The notes under the pieces are model-generated. The model was not told the DNA's origin, searched no databases, and was given only the letters and a program-made list of their open reading frames with translations. The position numbers were made by a program, and so were the translations under genes. Below are positions 2,802-22,929 of a stretch of DNA of 47,229 nucleotides, in pieces. Numbering within the stretch: the stretch's first letter is position 1; each line of letters opens with the position of its first letter. Source of the DNA: a virus; the IMG/VR virus record IMGVR_UViG_3300035666_000037, positions 1-47,229 of that record; one strand, written 5' to 3'.

Positions 2802-4989
2802 AGCTAACCAGTGGGTCAAGGGTCTAATTACTGAGGCATCTCCTCTTAATTTCCCTGAAGGCTCATCTGTTGATGAAGAGAACTTTGTTCTGGATAGGAA
2901 CGGTTCTCGGGAGCGTCGGCTTGGTATAGATTACGAGTCCCAGTACTCTCTGGTTAATCTAGGTGTTACCGCTACTGCGACTACGTGCGCTGTACAGAAT
3001 TACCTCTGGGAGAACGTAGGCCAGGATCCTCAGTCCAATTACTTGGTGCATCAGTTCGGCAACAAGCTGTACGTATTCGATGCAGACACTACTGCTGTCT
3101 CCAGTAACGCTCTCTTTGGTGGAGCCATCTCTCTTACCGCTACTGTACGAGAACGATTCTCATTTGCGGGCATTCAAGGTAACTTGATTGTTGCTGTTGG
3201 TGACCAGACTCTGCGAGTTATTCAGCCTGTAAGCAGTACTTACACTCTGACGTACACACGCTTGAAGGTGCGTGACTTCTGGGGTGTGGATGATGGCTTT
3301 GCTACGGATGAACGCACTAGCACTCTGACGGATCTACACGCCTACAATCTGTACAATCAAGGCTGGCCTCCTGAGTTCTTCTGTTCTGCTGATCCAGCGA
3401 ATCCCAGTACCATGAACAACGGTACGGTAGAGGATCCCGTAGAGCGCACCAAGACCTCTCTTGGAGTGTACCCCAGCAATGCGGATGTGATGGTATCCGC
3501 TATGACGTTCCTCCAGAATGGCCGCAAAGCATTTTTTCCGCATGCTTTGGATAACATCCTAGCAGGCAATACTCCTGCTTCTCAAGGACATTACATCATC
3601 GATCTCTTTGATCGCAGTCAGGGCCGTAAAGACACTTACGATGCGGATCTCGCTTCTGGCTGGTCTGCTCGCAGGAACTACAAGACTTCAATTCCTACTG
3701 ACCAATCCACTGGTGGAATCAAAGCCATTGCTGCGTATGCTGGCAGGGTTTTCTTTGCTTGTTCTCCTGGTGAGACAGGAGGAGATTCCAAGAGTCCTAA
3801 GGTAGGAACTTTCGTACTGTTCTCCCAGCTTGTGGATAACCTGACCGATCTGGAGGCTTGCTACCAAGAGGCTGATCCTACCGCAGAGGACATAAGTGAT
3901 CTAATTGACACAGATGGCGGTTACTTGCAATTGCCGGATGCTGTCAACATCAAGGCACTTGTTCCCTTTAAGTCCTCTTTGCTTGTGTTCGCAGACAACG
4001 GTGTATGGGCTATTGCAGGTGGGGATCGTGGCTTCACGGCTACGGAGTACCAATCGCAGTTCCTGACAAACAACGGAGCTATTGCGGCTGAGAGCATTAT
4101 CGTAACAACGGATGCAGTTCTGTACTGGAGCCGTAACGGTATCTTTGCTTTGGGTATGGGACAAGGTGGAATTGAAATCCAATCCTTGACTGAGTTCACT
4201 ATCCAGACTTTGTACAATTCCATTCCGTACAGTTCCAAGAAGTACGCAGTAGGGTACTTCGATGATGTATCCCAGCGTTGTCGTTGGTTGTACAGGGCAG
4301 TAGAAAACAATTCCCTGTACAGGCACATGTACACGCATGAGCTTATCCTCGACCTGTCTATGCCTGCGTGGAGTAGGTTCACTTTCAAGGATGCGGGTTC
4401 TCGCAGTCCTTTAGTAACAGGGTACATTCCTGTTCCTGTGCAATCCAGAACTCTCGCTAATTCGGATTTCAAGTACAGCACAATGCGATCCGATGTATCC
4501 GGCACGTACCTGATGACTGCATCGTATTTTAAAGACAATGCTTTCAGGGATTGGTATACTGGTGCTAGCGGTACGGATGCTGCTGCTTATCTTGTTACGG
4601 GTTACATCACTGCTGGCGATAGTGCTAGAAAGAAGTACGCTCCGTACCTGACTGTTCACTGTAACCGTACTGAGACTAATTGGACTGACGAAGGCTCGGG
4701 TACGCTTACTCTCTCTGCTCCTTCTAGCTGTTTGATTCAAGCTCAATGGGAATGGTGTACCTCTGAAGATGCTGGTCGTTGGGGCCAGCAGTTCCAGGCT
4801 TACCGTTACAGGCAGAACTTCATTCCTTCTAGCGCAGGAAGCCTGAGCTACGGGTACTCTGTAATCAGTACTCGCAATAAGATTCGTGGCAATGGTCGAG
4901 CATTGTCCTTCAAGTTCTCCACGGAAGCAGGCAAGGATCTCCAACTACTCGGATGGAACATAGAGATGGGAGCGAACAGAGAACCATGA
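2770..4989 (+). CDS. Tail tubular protein B (nozzle)
   Basis: A 739-residue protein matching T7 gp12-type nozzle proteins in length and position after the adaptor. The N-terminal region has the typical WVKGLITEASPLNFPEG and DEENFVLDRNGSRERRLG segments (residues about 16-55), which mark this family. The middle and C-terminal parts are beta-rich with many Tyr, Gly and Asp residues, as expected for a propeller-like nozzle. The only in-frame start that keeps the conserved N-terminus is GTG at 2770. The end overlaps the next gene by four bases (ATGA). It forms the distal part of the short tail through which DNA leaves. Confidence 0.85.
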   Translation: MRARTQRQPVEANQWVKGLITEASPLNFPEGSSVDEENFVLDRNGSRERRLGIDYESQYSLVNLGVTATATTCAVQNYLWENVGQDPQSNYLVHQFGNKLYVFDADTTAVSSNALFGGAISLTATVRERFSFAGIQGNLIVAVGDQTLRVIQPVSSTYTLTYTRLKVRDFWGVDDGFATDERTSTLTDLHAYNLYNQGWPPEFFCSADPANPSTMNNGTVEDPVERTKTSLGVYPSNADVMVSAMTFLQNGRKAFFPHALDNILAGNTPASQGHYIIDLFDRSQGRKDTYDADLASGWSARRNYKTSIPTDQSTGGIKAIAAYAGRVFFACSPGETGGDSKSPKVGTFVLFSQLVDNLTDLEACYQEADPTAEDISDLIDTDGGYLQLPDAVNIKALVPFKSSLLVFADNGVWAIAGGDRGFTATEYQSQFLTNNGAIAAESIIVTTDAVLYWSRNGIFALGMGQGGIEIQSLTEFTIQTLYNSIPYSSKKYAVGYFDDVSQRCRWLYRAVENNSLYRHMYTHELILDLSMPAWSRFTFKDAGSRSPLVTGYIPVPVQSRTLANSDFKYSTMRSDVSGTYLMTASYFKDNAFRDWYTGASGTDAAAYLVTGYITAGDSARKKYAPYLTVHCNRTETNWTDEGSGTLTLSAPSSCLIQAQWEWCTSEDAGRWGQQFQAYRYRQNFIPSSAGSLSYGYSVISTRNKIRGNGRALSFKFSTEAGKDLQLLGWNIEMGANREP

Positions 4990-5276
4990 TGACTGTACTG
5001 GATGAGAATCTGTACTGGAGAATCTCGGGAGATCGAGCACCTTCGGGAGAAGTCATTATTCACTGTACAGTAAAAAAGTGGACGCACTCGGTGTACAAGG
5101 CGCTGATGTCCACTGTATGCAAATTGCAAATGACTCTCAGAGAGACGCTGTATGCTCCTTGGATATCAGAGAAACAAGAGAAGTTCCTCGGCATGATGGG
5201 GTTCTATCCCACAAACAAGTACATGCTGGGAGTAGATGCGAATGTTTATCAATTGTATAAGTTTGAGGTACATTAA
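4986..5276 (+). CDS. Hypothetical protein between tail and internal virion genes
   Basis: A 96-residue protein (MMTVLDENLYW...) with no family I recognise. The start at 4986 forms an ATGA overlap with the nozzle gene; 4989 is an equally possible ATG. Acidic and aromatic residues are spread through it and there is no membrane segment. It resembles in size the small acetyltransferase-like or assembly proteins that podoviruses carry at this place, but I see no motif to choose. The stop is directly followed by the ATG of the next gene. Confidence 0.6.
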   Translation: MMTVLDENLYWRISGDRAPSGEVIIHCTVKKWTHSVYKALMSTVCKLQMTLRETLYAPWISEKQEKFLGMMGFYPTNKYMLGVDANVYQLYKFEVH

Positions 5277-5726
5277 ATGGAAGCACTGGCTGCTTTGAGT
5301 GTAGGCGAAAAAATAATGCTGGGCGCAACAGCGGTTACTGGCATATCTACTGGGATGCAAGCAAAAGAAGCTCAGAGTGCAAGACAGCAAGCTCTCAAAG
5401 CTCAACAAGCAGAGCGTGAAGTTCAACGGGAACAGAACAGACGAGCTGTTGTGAATACCTTGCGTAAAGCCAGAATCCAGCGAGCTATGGTACAGCAATC
5501 CGCACTGAACACTGGAGCTACCGGATCAGGGCAAGCTGGGGCCATAGGAAGCATTGGTTCACAAACTGCATCCTCTGTTGGTTTCCAAGGAATGCAACAA
5601 CAAGCGGCTACCAATATCTCTCAATTCAACAAGAGAGCGTCTGCTGCTGAAAGTAGGGCAGGAGCTTATGGCGCTCTTAGTGATCTGTCTCAAAAAGCGT
5701 TTACCTTTGCCCAAGGATTCCAATAA
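5277..5726 (+). CDS. Internal virion protein, small (T7 gp14-like)
   Basis: A 149-residue protein with a hydrophobic N-terminal segment (residues about 9-27, Gly/Ala/Ile-rich), a long Ala/Gln/Arg-rich helix (about 28-72), then a Gly/Ser-rich part. This is the pattern of small internal virion proteins of T7-like phages, which insert into the outer membrane on ejection. It begins the usual triplet of internal core genes: it is followed by very large and medium proteins with TAATG overlaps. The call is from architecture and order, not from a motif. Confidence 0.65.
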   Translation: MEALAALSVGEKIMLGATAVTGISTGMQAKEAQSARQQALKAQQAEREVQREQNRRAVVNTLRKARIQRAMVQQSALNTGATGSGQAGAIGSIGSQTASSVGFQGMQQQAATNISQFNKRASAAESRAGAYGALSDLSQKAFTFAQGFQ

Positions 5727-12722: not shown

Positions 12723-12968
12723 TCACTCTCCCTCGAAACAGTCCAGTACAGTCTGCATATCCAGACCCAATCCGCAGTTAGAGCAGATGAACCACAGGCC
12801 ATCTCCTTTCATGTGGATGCACCATCTGAATGACTGGATGTTATCGTCCACAGAACATACGTGAGCTAAAGGCAGAGCATCCAGATCCTCCGGAGTCTGC
12901 CTCTTTGCTTTCGGGAACGTAGTTACCTTTGAGTCAGAGTCCACAGACTCCTCCTTTACAGGCATCAT
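12723..12968 (-). CDS. Small Cys-containing protein, end of leftward operon
   Basis: An 81-residue protein starting at ATG 12968 (12965 is a second ATG), overlapping the end of the reductase gene by 35 bases. It carries CIHMKGDGLWFICSNCGLGL near its C-terminus; the Cys and His residues could hold zinc, but the pattern is irregular. Its stop touches the stop of the endolysin gene on the other strand. I recognise no family. The ribosome site is weak (AGAGA right before the start), so translation may depend on coupling to the reductase. Confidence 0.5.
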   Translation of the reverse strand: MMPVKEESVDSDSKVTTFPKAKRQTPEDLDALPLAHVCSVDDNIQSFRWCIHMKGDGLWFICSNCGLGLDMQTVLDCFEGE

Positions 12969-14568
12969 TCTCTTCGTACACAACTCCCTTGTGCTTCATG
13001 GCTTCCTTGTAGGATACAGCCTCGAGCGGTTGACCTCCTCTAGCACCATCGGGGTAGCAAGTAAAACCGCGAAGGCGATGAGCATACTTAGCCAGAATGC
13101 TGGAGAACTCCCCAACACGATCATCATTATTGAGATCGCTGCCCCAAGAGGGGAGGTTAATAGTACTAGAGATAGACATATCGACGTAATCCTGGACATC
13201 AGCTTGGAACCTCACTCGGCGTTCCCAATCGGGAACTAGATCAATGGCAGTCTCGATGCTATCGGGATTGATTCCCTCACGGATCAGAGCATCCGCAGTA
13301 GCATCCACTACGTACTCGTACTTCCACTTCGTACCATCTACTAGGTATCGTCGTTTGTAAGCAACAGCAAACAAAGGCTCAATACCAGTAGTAGTCCCAG
13401 CCAGTATGCCGATAGACCCTGTGGGCGCGATAGCGCGGTAGGCAACAGGACGGCTGATGCTAAGACGGTCGCAGAGGCTATTCGCTGCACGTTCGGACTC
13501 TTCGCGATACACCTCCATCCATTGGCGAAGCTCAGGAACCATTTCATATTTGTAGCCTCTCTTCAGAAGCCATTCATGTATTCCCATGAGTCCAAGACCC
13601 AATCGGCGGTTCTTCTTGCGAACCTCGTATACCTTTTTGTAGGGAAGGTCTGCCGTAATAGTGCCGCATACCAAGAACCCAGACGCAAGCCGAACGACTT
13701 CCCTGAATTCCTGTAGTGTATCAATCCGGCCAATGTTAATAGAGCCAAGATTGCACACATCAGAGTCATCAGCAGAAGTAACTTCAGTGCACGCATTACG
13801 AAGAGTTTCATTTTCCTTGTCCCCGAAGTTAAAGGAGAAGCCCGGTTCACCGGATGACATAGCTTGTCGGCAGTTATCTACGAATACCGAAGGCAAGTAC
13901 CCCTGCTGTACTGCATCAAGGAATGCGTCATCGTAGTTCAGCGAGACGTTGGTCATATCCAAAGGAGCAGGGAAATTGAAGTTATCGTTCTTCGCATCAT
14001 GCAAAGAGTACCCTGCGTGTACAGGCATATCCTTCCAGTTCTTTACCTTCAGGAAGGCTTCTGCGTCCCCGTGTCGCCAGTTGATGCTGGCATAGATCGC
14101 AGAGCGGCGAGATCCACCCTGCATAACATTTCGTCCGACTTCGTTGATAGAGTGCATGAGAGGGATAGGCCCGCTTGCGCGACCTCCAGTACGGCCCAGA
14201 TTTGCCCCATGAGGACGGAAGACAGAATAGTCCACGCCAATACCACCCCCAGACATAAGGCAATCACTAGCTCTTTTAAGGAGGCGACCCCACTCTTCGC
14301 GGGTGTCTTCTTCTCCTTTGAGGAGGTAGCAGTTGTTGTAGAATCGAGCTTGTCGCCCTGCGTAGTAGACATACCGGCCTCCAGGAATGAACTTGAATGA
14401 TGCGATGAACTTCTCCAAGGCATCCTGATGATCCTTGGCAAAGAGGTTAGTGGTCACATCGTGAACGATATCCTTGGCCTTCTCTGCCCAAGTCTGATCA
14501 GGGAAGAGAGCGTACTTGTTCTTGAATACGTTCTCACCGAAGCTGTTGCGGAACTCAGTCATATTCAT
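12934..14568 (-). CDS. nrdJ: Ribonucleotide reductase, adenosylcobalamin-dependent (class II)
   Basis: A 544-residue enzyme that reduces ribonucleotides to deoxyribonucleotides for phage DNA synthesis. Visible motifs are FYNNCYLL with redox C80, the finger-loop NACTEV (about 257-262, catalytic Cys), the second redox Cys in VCNLGSINIGR (about 270-280), and the C-terminal CKGGVCGL pair that re-reduces the active site. One compact chain with these motifs and no small-subunit gene nearby indicates the class II, B12-dependent type. The start at 14568 is chosen for AAAGGAGA upstream; ATG 14562 is an alternative. It sits with other nucleotide and replication genes in the leftward block. Confidence 0.9.
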   Translation of the reverse strand: MNMTEFRNSFGENVFKNKYALFPDQTWAEKAKDIVHDVTTNLFAKDHQDALEKFIASFKFIPGGRYVYYAGRQARFYNNCYLLKGEEDTREEWGRLLKRASDCLMSGGGIGVDYSVFRPHGANLGRTGGRASGPIPLMHSINEVGRNVMQGGSRRSAIYASINWRHGDAEAFLKVKNWKDMPVHAGYSLHDAKNDNFNFPAPLDMTNVSLNYDDAFLDAVQQGYLPSVFVDNCRQAMSSGEPGFSFNFGDKENETLRNACTEVTSADDSDVCNLGSINIGRIDTLQEFREVVRLASGFLVCGTITADLPYKKVYEVRKKNRRLGLGLMGIHEWLLKRGYKYEMVPELRQWMEVYREESERAANSLCDRLSISRPVAYRAIAPTGSIGILAGTTTGIEPLFAVAYKRRYLVDGTKWKYEYVVDATADALIREGINPDSIETAIDLVPDWERRVRFQADVQDYVDMSISSTINLPSWGSDLNNDDRVGEFSSILAKYAHRLRGFTCYPDGARGGQPLEAVSYKEAMKHKGVVYEENDACKGGVCGL

Positions 14569-14809
14569 GCCGTTGTCTCCTTTCAATCTCACGTTCAATG
14601 TACCAAATGGCCTTGCATAGATCCTGTATTGTATTGTCTTTCAGTCCTGCCCTCCAGAGGTATTTGATTGCATTACCAACACAGAAATTGAAGTGCTCCG
14701 TGATCTGGATGCACTCTACCCCAGACGGATGCTGCGTATAGTGCTTGGGATGATTTACCAGATCGTCAATGTTATCCCCTACGTAGTCCGAATAATCGAA
14801 GTCGCTCAT
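14555..14809 (-). CDS. DUF3310 protein (SaV-like, nucleotide-kinase-annotated family)
   Basis: An 84-residue protein with the DUF3310 signature: VNHPKHYTQHPSGVECIQI (residues 18-36), then GNAIKYLWRAGLKDN (45-59) and a helical C-terminus. The family is frequent in phages and often named nucleotide kinase without firm proof. The start at 14809 gives an ATGA overlap with the upstream methyltransferase-like gene and removes a poor N-terminal extension. Its end overlaps the reductase start by 14 bases, consistent with a nucleotide-metabolism cluster. Family call is firm, biochemical role uncertain. Confidence 0.85.
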   Translation of the reverse strand: MSDFDYSDYVGDNIDDLVNHPKHYTQHPSGVECIQITEHFNFCVGNAIKYLWRAGLKDNTIQDLCKAIWYIEREIERRQRHEYD

Positions 14810-15357
14810 ATAGATCCCCACTGTTCTGCCATTGCTTGGGCTATTCCGGTAAAGGTTCTGGATCTCTCTTTCCAACGATCAGGGCTAGGTGCCATCTTGT
14901 GTACCCTAGCCTCTCTGCCATCCACGATGTTCGTAGGAACAAGGCTAGGCAAGTTCTTCAGCCAGAGACAGGTTGCCTTAGTCTCTCCGTGTCCGAACAT
15001 CCAAGGCTGGATGATCTGATCCGGCTTACGTATCTTGGAAGAGATGATGGAGATAGGATTCTCCAGTGCAATCCTTGGAATAGGAGCGTCCAGTAGCTCT
15101 TGTACGAACGCAAGAGCCTCCTTCTGCTCTTCTCGTTTGTCCTTGAACCAACGTGCTCCACTGACAGCCAAGTGAGTGCAAGGAGGATGCGCGATCATCA
15201 GATCCCATCCATCGTGCAGGATATCTCGTACATCTCCTTCGTAGTGTTCTCCAAGAATCTCTGTAGGCAGCAGATCGCAAGACAGTGCGTAGTGTCCTTT
15301 GGCTTTAAAAGCTTCTCGGACAGTTGCACTGTACTCGCAAGCTACTAGTACCTTCAC
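14806..15357 (-). CDS. Short C5-cytosine methyltransferase-like protein
   Basis: A 183-residue protein with the core of cytosine-C5 DNA methyltransferases: VLVACEYSATVREAF (residues 3-17, cofactor loop), the catalytic HPPC (58-61 region, C60) and ALENP (98-101, motif VI). It is about half the length of a classical enzyme such as M.HhaI and seems to lack a target-recognition domain. The family is common in phages and its target is generally unknown. GTG at 15357 is chosen because it overlaps the upstream stop (GTGA) and has GAGGA at the right distance. It may modify phage DNA against restriction, which is an inference. Confidence 0.7.
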   Translation of the reverse strand: MKVLVACEYSATVREAFKAKGHYALSCDLLPTEILGEHYEGDVRDILHDGWDLMIAHPPCTHLAVSGARWFKDKREEQKEALAFVQELLDAPIPRIALENPISIISSKIRKPDQIIQPWMFGHGETKATCLWLKNLPSLVPTNIVDGREARVHKMAPSPDRWKERSRTFTGIAQAMAEQWGSI

Positions 15358-16121
15358 AGCCAATTCCTCAGGAGATAGTCAATGGATAGGGTGACGATAT
15401 CGTAGGAGCCGTTCTGTACCTCTGTCAACATCAGAGCACCGCGCCAATGCTGGTTTCCTTGGTACTGCATGTAGTCCTCTTCGTGCTGGTAGAACGCTCC
15501 AGCAATGATGCACTGTACTCGGGATCCATCCGTCTTCACATGCGGGGAGATGTAGTAATCAAAGGTCTGCTGGTGCCCTACGATCCATGACTCATGCTTC
15601 TTGGTAGCGATCAGGTGGGCACGGGAGATAGGTCTTCCCATGCTCCCTCCTTGTGCATAGTGACAGAAATTAACTCCGTTGATTCGGACAGGGCTAAGGA
15701 AAGCATGTTCCTCCCATCCGAACTGTCTACGCAGATCGTAATCAGGCAAGGCCCCCTGCAGAAAAGGCTCCTGGGCAATGAGTCTGTCCCTTCTAGCTTC
15801 GTGGTTGCCATAGCAGAATACCTTCCTCGGTCTGTACGGTCTGTGCTTGCTGCGGATCTGTTGATCGTTGTAGGAGTTCATGGGGGATAGTAGGGCTTCC
15901 ATTCCCTCCCATCCGGCCTCCAAGTCAGAGAGCATCCTTGCTCCCTCATAGACAATGTGCCCCTTGGAGTTATGCTGCCCCAAGGATGGCATATCGAAGT
16001 GATCACCTATGTGAACGATCACCTCGGGTTTCTTGTCGAGGATGTAATTCCCCAGCGCAGTGAGATGCGTTAGAGGTACACCCGATTTAACCTGAGTGTC
16101 TGGTATTACGATGATTCGCAT
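15354..16121 (-). CDS. Calcineurin-like metallophosphoesterase
   Basis: A 255-residue phosphoesterase with the dinuclear-metal motifs in order: PDTQ (D8), IGDHFD (D40, H41), YGNHEAR (N106, H107), CHYAQ (H154) and VGHQQ (H183). The first motif is PDTQ in place of the more common D-x-H, seen in related phage enzymes. The substrate cannot be told from sequence; phage relatives may act on nucleic-acid ends or nucleotides. The start at 16121 has AAGGA seven bases upstream and overlaps the next gene upstream by 16 bases. It sits between small unknown genes and the methyltransferase-like gene. Confidence 0.85.
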   Translation of the reverse strand: MRIIVIPDTQVKSGVPLTHLTALGNYILDKKPEVIVHIGDHFDMPSLGQHNSKGHIVYEGARMLSDLEAGWEGMEALLSPMNSYNDQQIRSKHRPYRPRKVFCYGNHEARRDRLIAQEPFLQGALPDYDLRRQFGWEEHAFLSPVRINGVNFCHYAQGGSMGRPISRAHLIATKKHESWIVGHQQTFDYYISPHVKTDGSRVQCIIAGAFYQHEEDYMQYQGNQHWRGALMLTEVQNGSYDIVTLSIDYLLRNWL

Positions 16122-18421: not shown

Positions 18422-20338
18422 TCAGTGAGTTTCAGACCAATTCTTGCCGATATTGTATTCCCCTGTCAAGGGGACGTTCAATCTCAACATCTTCCCTGCA
18501 TTCACAATGCTTTCAATTCCTATCCTCCCTATGTCATCAGCAATGTAATACCGCGCTTCCCATTGTTCCTCATCATGGTAGCGAATCAATCCGTATGCGT
18601 CCAATCCAAGTCCCTTTATCTCTCGATCAGCGAGGCACATAGCGTACTTCATGGTGATTGCGCCCGCTGATTGGAACAGACGATTCAGTGCGGAATGCAT
18701 GGAATCCACGGGGATACGCCTACGATCAATGGCTACCAGATAACCCTTAGCTGCCGCTCTCTGCACTCGACCGTGCAGATCCTTAAGTGCGGGGTTGGTA
18801 TCCCAGAAAGCCTGGTATACATCCTCTGCGTGGGATTGACTCCATCCAAATTGGCTAGCGAGTTTCTTAGCTGATGCACCATAAGTTACAGCGTACTTGA
18901 ACGTCTTAGCCTGTGCCCTTGTGGGTAGGCCAAGAGCCATCTGGTTCTTGGTGTGAATGTCTCCCTCCAGAAGTTCAGCAGCATAAGTCCCACCGTCGAT
19001 AGGGTACGTGTAGTGCGCTTCCATGCGAGCCTCGAGGGAACTGGCATCCCATCCCACCATGACGTAGCCTTTCCTTGCAGTGAATAGCCCCCTAATCTCC
19101 TTACCGTATGCGGAGGATGCGCGGGGAATGTTGGCTATGACACGATGCGTAAATCTTCCAGTGACTGCGCCTACTGTGTCCGCATCAGATCCAATCAGCC
19201 CTTCTCGGACAACTCGTGTGTGATTCAGCCAGCCAGATCCCGAATCAGAGGCAAGGACATTCCTGCGGTTACGGATAGTCAGGTACTCCTTGATCTTAGC
19301 GACCTGATCTGTGGCGCCAGGAATCGCATCAAGGCCGGGACACATAGCACCATCATCACCATGCAACTTAGGTGAAGTCTTGGTCTTCTTGCGTGTCTCT
19401 GGATCAACCTTGTGGTTCCAGATCGTAGGCTTCCAGCCAAGAGACAGAAGGTATTCCTTCACTTCATCACTGGATCCAATGTCCAAGAACCTGTGGCGAT
19501 TCAGTGCCTCGGTGAGAGGCAGCGAGTAACTCAACAGAGAGTTCTTACGTGCCTTCCATGCACCCATTTCTTGAACCAATTCCCACCCATTTCTCTCGAT
19601 GTACTTGTGTACAGCTACATTGGGAGTTCCGTCTTTCTTGAACTGCTGCTTTGGAGGGGTATCCAATTTGTTCTCAGGTACAGGTAACAGCCCTGCCTGA
19701 TCGGCTACTTCCTTAGCAAGTGCTTGCATCCGATCAGTCAAGAGAACATGCAGATCCTTCGCTGCTGCAACGTCAAAGGTTACACCTCGCTCATGCTGCT
19801 CTGCCACGATGCGAGACACGTTGGATTCTATGTTCCATACTTGCTCGGGAATGCCATCATCCATTCCCTTCTGGATCATCTGTTCGTACAGCAGGCGGGT
19901 CACTTGTACGTCTTCCCTGCATCGAGCAACCATCTCTCCAATGCCATCAGAAAGAGGACGCTTCACCATGCCGAAGTCCTTGTACCATGAGTCCAGCGAG
20001 TGGCTACTGCGCTCCGGATACATGATTTTGGACATCAGCAGGGTATCGTGAACCTGGCCATGATAATGCAGATCCATGCCGAAGAGACGCAGGATTACAG
20101 GCGCATCAAAGCGACAGATGTTGTGACCTACAAAGACCAAGCTATCATTCTGTTCTACACAGTGCCGAAAGAAAGAGAATTTATCCGTGTGTACATCCGT
20201 AATCACCTCGGTGTACTCATCACCTGCATCGTTCACGCTGAACACCATGCAAGTGACACGATCAACGGCTAACTGCCCAAGATCATGGAATGCTTTCTGC
20301 TCGGGAAAGTTAGTCTCAAGGTCGAGATACACGATCAT
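18422..20338 (-). CDS. Family A DNA polymerase with 3'-5' exonuclease (T7 gp5-like)
   Basis: A 638-residue replicative polymerase. The N-terminal proofreading domain shows YLDLETN (D6, E8) and GHNICRFDAP. The polymerase domain shows motif A GWDASSLEARM (about 428-438), motif B KTFKYAVTYGASAKKL (about 477-492) and motif C RYHDEEQWE (about 583-591). T7 gp5 is 704 residues; this one is shorter and may lack part of the thioredoxin-binding insertion. The start at 20338 has AGGAG upstream. It lies downstream of the primase-helicase and upstream of SSB and exonuclease, the T7 replication set. Confidence 0.95.
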   Translation of the reverse strand: MIVYLDLETNFPEQKAFHDLGQLAVDRVTCMVFSVNDAGDEYTEVITDVHTDKFSFFRHCVEQNDSLVFVGHNICRFDAPVILRLFGMDLHYHGQVHDTLLMSKIMYPERSSHSLDSWYKDFGMVKRPLSDGIGEMVARCREDVQVTRLLYEQMIQKGMDDGIPEQVWNIESNVSRIVAEQHERGVTFDVAAAKDLHVLLTDRMQALAKEVADQAGLLPVPENKLDTPPKQQFKKDGTPNVAVHKYIERNGWELVQEMGAWKARKNSLLSYSLPLTEALNRHRFLDIGSSDEVKEYLLSLGWKPTIWNHKVDPETRKKTKTSPKLHGDDGAMCPGLDAIPGATDQVAKIKEYLTIRNRRNVLASDSGSGWLNHTRVVREGLIGSDADTVGAVTGRFTHRVIANIPRASSAYGKEIRGLFTARKGYVMVGWDASSLEARMEAHYTYPIDGGTYAAELLEGDIHTKNQMALGLPTRAQAKTFKYAVTYGASAKKLASQFGWSQSHAEDVYQAFWDTNPALKDLHGRVQRAAAKGYLVAIDRRRIPVDSMHSALNRLFQSAGAITMKYAMCLADREIKGLGLDAYGLIRYHDEEQWEARYYIADDIGRIGIESIVNAGKMLRLNVPLTGEYNIGKNWSETH

Positions 20339-20354
20339 AAATTGCTCCTAGCTA

Positions 20355-20990
20355 TCATCCAAACAAATCCAAATTCTGGTTAACTCCTCGGGAATCGCAC
20401 CAACACGCAGCCGATGCATGGCTTTCTATTCGTTCCATCATAATCAAAGCCCTAGTCTGTCTCGACTTAGGTGCATATGGCGCTCTGTCCCATGCAGAAT
20501 CTATTCCGATATTACGCGCAACATTTGTTGAGTCGGCACTGGAAAGAGGTAGATGCGAAAATATTGTAGGATCTAACATTCGCAACCCGTGCAATTTACT
20601 GCGGGGAATTCCTTTATCATCACAAGCCACGCGCATGACTTGTGTCATTCTTTCCCACCACGAACGATTTCCAACTGCCGCATACTGGCCAGAACTACCC
20701 AAAGCAACACGAGGAAAACTACCTACCAGTCTATCTAATCTGTCAAGACTTTCATGCAAATGAAAAACAGGAACTCCTCCTACCCAACCATCCAGCATTG
20801 CATCGTTATCTTCTTCGCTGCCATCAATAACGTCAGGAATAAGATACCAATCACAAGCAGGATGGCGATACCAACAATCTATCCATTTCCTAAAACCATC
20901 TACATCTAATTTTTCTCCACGAGTATGCCTGCCAAGCCCCTCGCTTTGGTCGAAAGTAATAACCACGTGCTTGACGTTTACGAAGCGCAC
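20355..20990 (-). CDS. TGT/DpdA-like protein (possible 7-deazaguanine DNA transglycosylase)
   Basis: A 211-residue protein with conserved-looking segments PDVIDG (52-57), FHLHESLD (76-83), VALGSSGQY (95-103), KLHGLRM (132-138) and LSSADSTNVARN (149-160). This order recalls phage tRNA-guanine-transglycosylase-like proteins such as DpdA, where an Asp in the DST-like motif would attack the glycosidic bond to swap guanine for a 7-deazaguanine. No queuosine-pathway genes (queC, queD, queE, folE) are present, so a base would come from the host. Composition is more AT-rich than its neighbours and I see no GTAC in it, suggesting transfer. It starts with GTG right after the upstream stop. Another TIM-barrel role remains possible. 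Confidence 0.45.
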   Translation of the reverse strand: MRFVNVKHVVITFDQSEGLGRHTRGEKLDVDGFRKWIDCWYRHPACDWYLIPDVIDGSEEDNDAMLDGWVGGVPVFHLHESLDRLDRLVGSFPRVALGSSGQYAAVGNRSWWERMTQVMRVACDDKGIPRSKLHGLRMLDPTIFSHLPLSSADSTNVARNIGIDSAWDRAPYAPKSRQTRALIMMERIESHASAACWCDSRGVNQNLDLFG

Positions 20991-20993
20991 CCA

Positions 20994-21254
20994 TCACTCA
21001 TCCCTCCTTGCGCGGATGGAGGCCTCTAGTGTTTCTTGATCTCCAATGGTCAGCCGTATATCGCCTAACCCAACGTGTCGTTCGTCAAACCTAGCAACAC
21101 GCAAGTAATCCTTTACAGTTGCCGCACACGCCTCGCGCTCTTTTGCTGCTACAAGTGCAGCGAAATGCCCAAATTTATCAATCCCTTCAGGGGAGAAAAA
21201 TTCAGGTTTAAACCCAACCTCCCTCACCATTCGTATTACATCATCACGATCCAT
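20994..21254 (-). CDS. Small conserved phage protein (DRDDVIRM family)
   Basis: An 86-residue protein starting MDRDDVIRMVREVGF, followed by GHFAALVAAKEREACA. I know this pattern from many small proteins of Burkholderiales phages; the function is not known. The ATG at 21254 is chosen for GGAGG nine bases upstream; it overlaps the end of the primase-helicase gene by 11 bases. The Ala/Glu-rich central helix suggests a dimerising helix. It is the best taxonomic hint in the window. Confidence 0.7.
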   Translation of the reverse strand: MDRDDVIRMVREVGFKPEFFSPEGIDKFGHFAALVAAKEREACAATVKDYLRVARFDERHVGLGDIRLTIGDQETLEASIRARRDE

Positions 21255-22929
21255 TGTAAACACCCTCCAAGTATTCATCCATTGATTGTGGTGTACTCTC
21301 TTGGATCTCGTCATCCACTGGCACCATGCGTCCGCTACTGTGTACGTACTTGCATCGTCCAGCCTGACCAGTGAATCCCCAAGTCCTATTCTTCAGTACG
21401 CGCATAGATACGAAATCCTCGCTACCATCCTCTGCCTGCTGGTTCCTCTCCATTGCGAGTACGCCCCAGCTCAGTTGCTCCAATGCAGCACTACCTCGGA
21501 GATCAGTGAGCGATACATTCCCTCCCTCGTTCAGAGACTTGCCTGCATCCCTGGATTCTCGACGCTTGAGATGCACTACGTTGATGAGTCCTACACCAGT
21601 GGATACTACCATCTGTGCAAGATCGGTCATGATCTTGTCAATCTCTTTGCGTTCGTTCTGAACGTCACTGCCACTGATCACCATGCTCAGGTGATCCAAG
21701 ATGATAAAGTCCACGCCACTGCGAGCGTAATAGAATAACTTCTCCTTGAAACTGGAAGAGTCGATACTGCCGAAGTGGTTAAAGAAGTACATCTTCCTTA
21801 CCGTGCGATCCATCGACTGCTCGACAAGGCGCATGGGTATGCAGCCGGGATCTGTCCTGAACTTGCTGCTGGGTACGTTGTTATCCATCGCTACATACGA
21901 TGCTGCGGTAGCCTCGACAACATCTTCCAGTGCAATGTGGCACACCTTCAGACCATGCCGAACTACCAGATCGTACCCGATCTCTTTAACCAATGTGCTC
22001 TTGCCGATCCCGCTGCCTGCACACACTGTCAGGATCTCACCTTTCCTCAATCCATGCAGCTTGGCGTTTAGGCCGGGGAACGGAGTATCAAACCCTTCTG
22101 GCACTGAGCGCATAAGATCCGCAATGCTAATCTCCGATCCATGCACTATGCCCTCTGGCCGAAACTGTGGCGTAGCCTTCACTGCCTGAGCGAACTCAGC
22201 CTTGAAGCCTCCAACTAGGCAGGCCGAAGCATCCTTGTGCGGGACTTCGACTAGGCGAACATCTGGCACGAAACCGGAGAGCCATCCTGCCAGCTTTTTA
22301 GCAGTAGCTCTCCCCGGTTCATCACTGTCGAGACACAGATAGACTTTGCCGTACCTTCGTATGAAATCGATGTCGGATTGAACGCTTGCATCGACCCTCC
22401 CATCAGAATTAGCGCCATTAGGTACAGAACAAACGTCATGCACAGACCCAGGGCTATTCCGCAGCATCTCAGCAATTGCGAGCGCATCCTCTTCCCCTTC
22501 TGTGATGATTAACGCACCGTGCGGTACCTTGTGTGCGACCTGCTTACCCCACAGGCCATTCAGTTTACCGACTACAAAGAAGTCTTTGTTCTGGATGTTC
22601 CTAACCTTGAAGCCGGTAACCTTCCCATCTCGATCTGCATACGGGTAGTAAGTGCGTTTGGGTTTGCCGGAACTGGTATCGTATACGCAGCGTATGCCGT
22701 ACTTCTTGATGATCTCTTCGCTGATCTTACGCTCGGGATCATGCCCCTCAGGCTCGGACATACAGTCCTGAATTGACACCTTGCTTTCCATCCGTGTTAC
22801 CTCGCTCGCTTGTCCGGCAATCTTACCGTGACCAGCATGGCAGAACATCCCACCGTCGGGATATATTGTGGCATTGTTGCCACGTTGATCCCTGCCCTCT
22901 GCCTCGCACTTCGGGCACCTAGTTTTCAT
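21244..22929 (-). CDS. Primase-helicase (T7 gp4-like)
   Basis: A 561-residue bifunctional replication protein. The N-terminal zinc-binding part has CPKC (residues 5-8) and FCHAGHG. The Toprim primase domain shows ITEGEEDALAI (about 143-153) and LCLDSDEPGR (about 195-204). The RecA-like helicase has Walker A AGSGIGKST (about 304-312), Walker B DFIILDHLSM (about 407-416), and a later HLKRRE segment. T7 gp4 has 566 residues, so it is full length. The start has AAAGGTGA upstream. It unwinds DNA and makes primers for the polymerase encoded at 18422-20338. Confidence 0.95.
   Translation of the reverse strand: MKTRCPKCEAEGRDQRGNNATIYPDGGMFCHAGHGKIAGQASEVTRMESKVSIQDCMSEPEGHDPERKISEEIIKKYGIRCVYDTSSGKPKRTYYPYADRDGKVTGFKVRNIQNKDFFVVGKLNGLWGKQVAHKVPHGALIITEGEEDALAIAEMLRNSPGSVHDVCSVPNGANSDGRVDASVQSDIDFIRRYGKVYLCLDSDEPGRATAKKLAGWLSGFVPDVRLVEVPHKDASACLVGGFKAEFAQAVKATPQFRPEGIVHGSEISIADLMRSVPEGFDTPFPGLNAKLHGLRKGEILTVCAGSGIGKSTLVKEIGYDLVVRHGLKVCHIALEDVVEATAASYVAMDNNVPSSKFRTDPGCIPMRLVEQSMDRTVRKMYFFNHFGSIDSSSFKEKLFYYARSGVDFIILDHLSMVISGSDVQNERKEIDKIMTDLAQMVVSTGVGLINVVHLKRRESRDAGKSLNEGGNVSLTDLRGSAALEQLSWGVLAMERNQQAEDGSEDFVSMRVLKNRTWGFTGQAGRCKYVHSSGRMVPVDDEIQESTPQSMDEYLEGVYNGS

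Follow-up and report, generated by a model that had tools for sequence, protein, structure and literature searches.

A 5'-truncated singleton dpdA in a phage replication block, probably a recent acquisition and inactive in base exchange

The window analysed here is an entire virus record from IMG/VR, 47,229 bases long. A DpdA-like open reading frame (ORF) lies in its replication block, with a primase-helicase gene and a 106-codon ORF upstream and the gene for a family A DNA polymerase downstream (Table 1). An earlier sequence-only reading had described this ORF as a foreign-looking TGT/DpdA-like gene that, if active, could insert a host-derived 7-deazaguanine into phage DNA. The 211-codon frame, its GTG start and the segments quoted from it are all real, but the absence of a 5' end had escaped that reading.

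Table 1. Features at and around the DpdA-like ORF, in window positions
Feature	Position	Strand	Remarks
5'-truncated DpdA/TGT-like ORF	20355..20990	-	211 aa, GTG start; phrog_887, E=1e-45
IPDVIDG motif	20820..20840	-	residues 51-57; invariant Asp53 (invariant columns in alignment A2)
GSSG motif	20688..20699	-	residues 98-101; pairs with DpdA GG(L) stretch
KLHGLRM motif	20577..20597	-	residues 132-138; pairs with DpdA KVHGFGI
SSADSTN motif	20523..20543	-	residues 150-156; Asp153 pairs with the Asp of DpdA CDSSS
ORF start without supported homology	20916..20990	-	residues 1-25; occupies the place of strands 1-3 and DNGAF in intact relatives
Out-of-frame ORF, 34 codons	20890..20994	-	begins at the best-placed ATG, which shares bases with the stop (TGA) of the upstream gene; without DpdA core
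Upstream small ORF	20994..21314	-	5' part common to relative L088; homology stops at ~21124
Stretch without L088 counterpart	20339..21124	-	edge exactly at polymerase ATG; L089-L094 gene-free or with other small genes here
Family A DNA polymerase	18422-20338		3' neighbour of the DpdA-like ORF
Primase-helicase	21244-22929		5' of the 106-codon ORF and the DpdA-like ORF
Small protein	14806-15363	-	same replication block; phrog_757 'DNA methyltransferase' match, E=3e-70
554-aa ORF	12934-14598	-	matches families of the ribonucleotide reductase large subunit (phrog_84, E=1e-58)

In hmmscan the ORF protein matched a single PHROG, phrog_887, annotated 'queuine tRNA-ribosyltransferase'. There were zero matches to it in Pfam and NCBIfam, and a sequence search of the PDB gave nothing useful. 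By tblastn we recovered 105 phage records, every one below 60% identity and many annotated as queuine tRNA-ribosyltransferase, and 114 relatives were found in IMG/VR, the best of them the product of L007 (68% identity). The same PHROG also takes in the DpdA proteins of MED16, Salmonella phage 7-11, SEN1 and the 9g-like JenK1, and tblastn with the homologue P0005 found those of MED16 (E=1e-35) and 7-11 (E=2e-22).

A profile search against the DpdA and TGT families had been proposed along with the original reading. Using hhalign, we compared a profile of 44 family members with a profile of 9g-type DpdA and obtained a match of 98.8% probability (E=1e-16, 170 columns). The pairings, family first, were DNGAFSAW with DSGAFSAY, PVWHLHES with PCFHAGEP, GSSG with GGLV, KLHGLRM with KVHGFGI, and SADST with CDSSS. 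Since the motifs named in the sequence-only reading align in this comparison, they are genuine DpdA motifs. Comparison of the family with 13 bacterial TGTs gave 0.2%, that is, no direct profile match, and the ORF did not match the TGT profile PF01702, whereas a score of 560 bits was obtained for E. coli Tgt. The link to TGT therefore rests on DpdA and on the fold. These data support placing the ORF in the 'singleton DpdA' group within phrog_887, and at the level of the family the TGT/DpdA assignment was right. Singleton DpdAs are phage DNA-guanine transglycosylases whose genes come without preQ0 genes; enzymes of this family replace guanine in DNA by a similar base that is protective.

In TGT, Asp102 (in DSGGF) is the general acid/base and Asp280 is the nucleophile (PMC6165067, PMC4425180). 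The window protein has an Asp at position 153, in the ADS motif, which is an invariant column of the family and which, judging from the alignment, would be the equivalent of Asp280. In intact relatives, DNGAF aligns with DSGAF of DpdA and has DSGGF as its counterpart in TGT; its Asp is the putative equivalent of Asp102. In the numbering of L007, Asp47 and Asp186 would thus take the roles of Asp102 and Asp280.

Intact relatives typically have 239-260 aa, begin with MIHYHG and carry the DNGAF Asp at about residue 47. Both motifs are absent from the window protein. In a frame-aware profile alignment, homology began at nt 20915, at about residue 26 (EKLDVDGF). The stretch upstream of this point scored 11.2 against the N-terminal profile, as compared to a mean of 11.3 for shuffled sequence (75 of 150 shuffles were as high) and 102-152 for intact controls. 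One possibility was a frameshift that conceals the N-terminus, and we rejected it because the frame-aware alignment to the N-terminal profile never exceeded shuffled DNA. An out-of-frame GAWQAY that resembles GAFSAW was rejected as an N-terminal remnant on the same ground, and a split gene was rejected because a separate N-terminal piece was not found elsewhere in the window. The Asp of the D-[NS]-G motif, which nearly all relatives carry, is absent in every frame near the gene and elsewhere in the window. The N-terminus is missing in every frame.

Both N-terminal motifs were kept in 177 of 184 distinct family members. The rest comprised two members cut by contig ends, one with an unusual start, one that was misparsed, and L227, L237 and L036. 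In L237 and L227, DNGAF is varied to DCSAF and DNSAF, with the Asp retained. Among the approximately 184 members examined, a clear lack of the N-terminus was seen in just one besides the window copy, L036, which lies in a different phage. Its positions 4902-5606 encode a DpdA core in which strands 1-3 and DNGAF are lacking and an unrelated in-frame N-terminus (MKSDRLDYYRN...) stands in front; the breakpoint is nearly that of the window copy, and the in-frame replacement could mean a useful short form. The losses in the two genes, which removed the same segment and ended at almost the same position, were apparently independent.

What is left of the window gene is well preserved. About 165 residues are retained without an interrupting stop, 34 of the 35 columns with strong conservation are intact, and there is no excess change relative to L007. 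Because the retained part keeps these columns without acceleration of its rate, the truncation looks recent, perhaps dating from the time of transfer; alternatively, the short form has been kept for some purpose. The start codon of the 211-aa ORF is poorly placed. A Shine-Dalgarno-like AAGGAGG lies 12 nt from the in-frame GTG but 8 nt from an ATG which, overlapping with the stop of the upstream gene (TGATG), opens the 34-codon out-of-frame ORF.

Predicted structures agree with a partial protein. AlphaFold modelled the L007 product as an eight-stranded TIM barrel (mean pLDDT 89.8). A fold search with this model returned archaeosine TGT 1j2b among its PDB matches (E=0.01, TMq 0.56) and phage 'queuine tRNA-ribosyltransferases' down to E=9e-10 among viral proteins. 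In the model of the window protein (pLDDT 79.9) strands 1-3 were absent, so that the barrel was represented by its later part alone and was not a complete eight-stranded one; its start was disordered (pLDDT ~49-63), confidence was fair from residue ~30 onwards, and a fold search with it gave zero matches at E <0.001. The sequence-only reading had asked for a TIM barrel with a catalytic Asp, and had counted the lack of such an Asp in a model against itself. In part, the model shows what would speak against that reading: strands 1-3 and the DNGAF Asp are absent, while part of the barrel and the SADST Asp are present.

To place the gene among related phages, we compared the region with L088-L094. 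Primase-helicase identity to the window was 89-97% in L088-L092 and L094, and 63% in L093, and no DpdA-like gene occurs in the examined DNA of any of the seven. In L089 the polymerase comes straight after the primase-helicase, and in L088, L090 and L092 the slot holds other small genes. Homology between the window and its relatives returns exactly at the polymerase ATG. Because close relatives lack the gene and homology resumes at that ATG, the dpdA-like gene is an insert in a variable slot, and the earlier description of it as foreign is supported. The junction as a whole (window 20339-21300; L088 9616-10175; L089 5547; L090 9454-9703) is variable in this phage group: it may be empty of genes, hold one small ORF or two, or hold a small ORF plus dpdA. 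An ending of the type GCCATCCGMGCAAGGGGTGA, common to several junction variants, precedes the next start codon and may guide exchange. The window thus exemplifies the arrival of a singleton dpdA as one cassette.

Composition adds less. The ORF is AT-richer than its neighbours, as had been noted, with a GC content of 45.4% compared to 50.5% for the polymerase, 52.1% for the primase-helicase and 47.4% for the 106-codon ORF. This value falls at the 1.4th percentile of 636-base windows within the replication block but, when the whole window is considered, at the 17.6th, a modest signal genome-wide. It is a weak mark of the donor, because the GC content of family members is close to that of the phage carrying them. 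The ORF was also correctly observed to hold no GTAC, where about 4.9 sites would be expected at the mean density of the phage (366 in total), and only one GTAC-free gap in the genome is longer than that at 20213-21293. However, about 8% of random placements yield a gap of this size somewhere and from the trinucleotides of the ORF itself no more than ~1.3 sites would be predicted. The argument is therefore weak, and we rejected the absence of GTAC as a sign of modification. Across the phage GTAC is common (366 sites versus 184 from base composition alone and ~320 from a trinucleotide model), as it is in L088-L094 (7-10 per kb); the most depleted tetramers are AGCT, CGCG and TGCA.

The absence of preQ0 genes, also claimed at the outset, was borne out for the two families searched: QueC (PF06508) and QueD (PF01242) had no match in the record, while the controls were positive.

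These data suggest a scenario in which a singleton dpdA, without preQ0 genes, recently entered the variable slot between primase-helicase and polymerase, and about 57 N-terminal family residues, the first quarter of the protein, were lost; with them went strands 1-3 and the presumed general acid/base, the Asp of DNGAF. The ORF would now begin at a badly positioned GTG. In intact relatives, which would be expected to work as DpdA and TGT do, one Asp would attack the sugar so that guanine is released, and the second would help preQ0 to attach in its place; it is plausible that intact singletons replace guanine in DNA with preQ0 from the host. The window copy is most likely inactive in this exchange because three barrel strands and one of the two catalytic aspartates are missing, and it would probably be unable to complete it. 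We therefore favour the view that the gene is a singleton dpdA which was acquired recently and is truncated at its 5' end; it probably lacks base-exchange activity and is most likely a young pseudogene. Against this reading stand about 165 open residues, the preserved nucleophile-equivalent Asp, the parallel in L036 and the fair confidence of the model.

The same observations could be taken to mean that a short, non-catalytic protein is maintained, for example as a DNA-binding or partner subunit. QTRT2 is a non-catalytic TGT subunit in eukaryotes. The open and conserved remainder, which shows no acceleration, would fit, as would the nearly identical breakpoint in L036 with its new N-terminus in frame. 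On the other hand, the barrel is partial and its start disordered in the model, the start codon is badly positioned, an intact partner gene is absent from the record, and relatives above ~70% identity, which could show conservation of the short form, were not found. We consider such a derivative unlikely. It could be speculated further that DpdA cores shortened by strands 1-3 and the acid/base Asp have been maintained as a second form of the family and serve a new purpose, for instance binding to DNA, modified or not, although this seems quite doubtful.

Another possibility is that the living phage has an intact gene and that its 5' part was lost in assembly or sequencing. The source is a virus contig of the IMG/VR collection, and an intact gene would be expected to begin with a start/stop overlap such as the TGATG that lies just upstream. 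However, about 130 nt would have to be missing, and both flanks are collinear with relatives, which makes an artefact rather improbable. The original proposal, in which DpdA is active and introduces host preQ0 into phage DNA, is very unlikely. It has precedent in MED16 and 7-11, which carry dpdA without preQ0 genes and contain dADG at ~0.13% and ~0.02% of G, respectively (PMC8306585, PMC6884629). Even intact singletons thus yield only traces, and the tested restriction enzymes were not noticeably affected by dADG in MED16 (PMC8306585, PMC6884629). With strands 1-3 and the DNGAF Asp missing, insertion of a 7-deazaguanine by the window copy is unsupported.

The preferred reading, a truncated and probably inactive dpdA, bears on annotation. 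A profile match to 'queuine tRNA-ribosyltransferase' does not imply a working enzyme, as here it covers the nucleophile while the other catalytic Asp is missing, and the gene should not be counted as evidence of DNA modification in this phage.

Among known systems, bacterial TGT (E. coli Tgt, 375 aa, PF01702) resembles the intact relatives in its TIM barrel and, via DpdA, in its D-S-G Asp motif, whereas the window protein has no Pfam match and the family no direct profile match. The 9g-type DpdA, with a homologue in Nonagvirus JenK1, is linked by the profile match described above, but the JenK1 protein has 317 aa and its gene adjoins queD and folE, while the window gene encodes 211 aa and stands alone. 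Close parallels are the singleton DpdAs of Pantoea phage MED16 (MED16_gp38) and 7-11, which share PHROG 887, the motif order IPDVIxG - GSSG/GCMG - HGLR - ADS and a gene without preQ0 genes (none are reported there; PMC8306585, PMC6884629). Unlike the window copy, they keep DNGAF and the preceding strands; the 7-11 protein as annotated has a later start that still includes DNGAF. The product of L007 (239 aa) is the nearest sequence found, yet its N-terminus is intact (MIHYHG, DNGAF) and its phage context is different. The window gene adds a member to the known singleton DpdA family, and this copy itself is probably dead.
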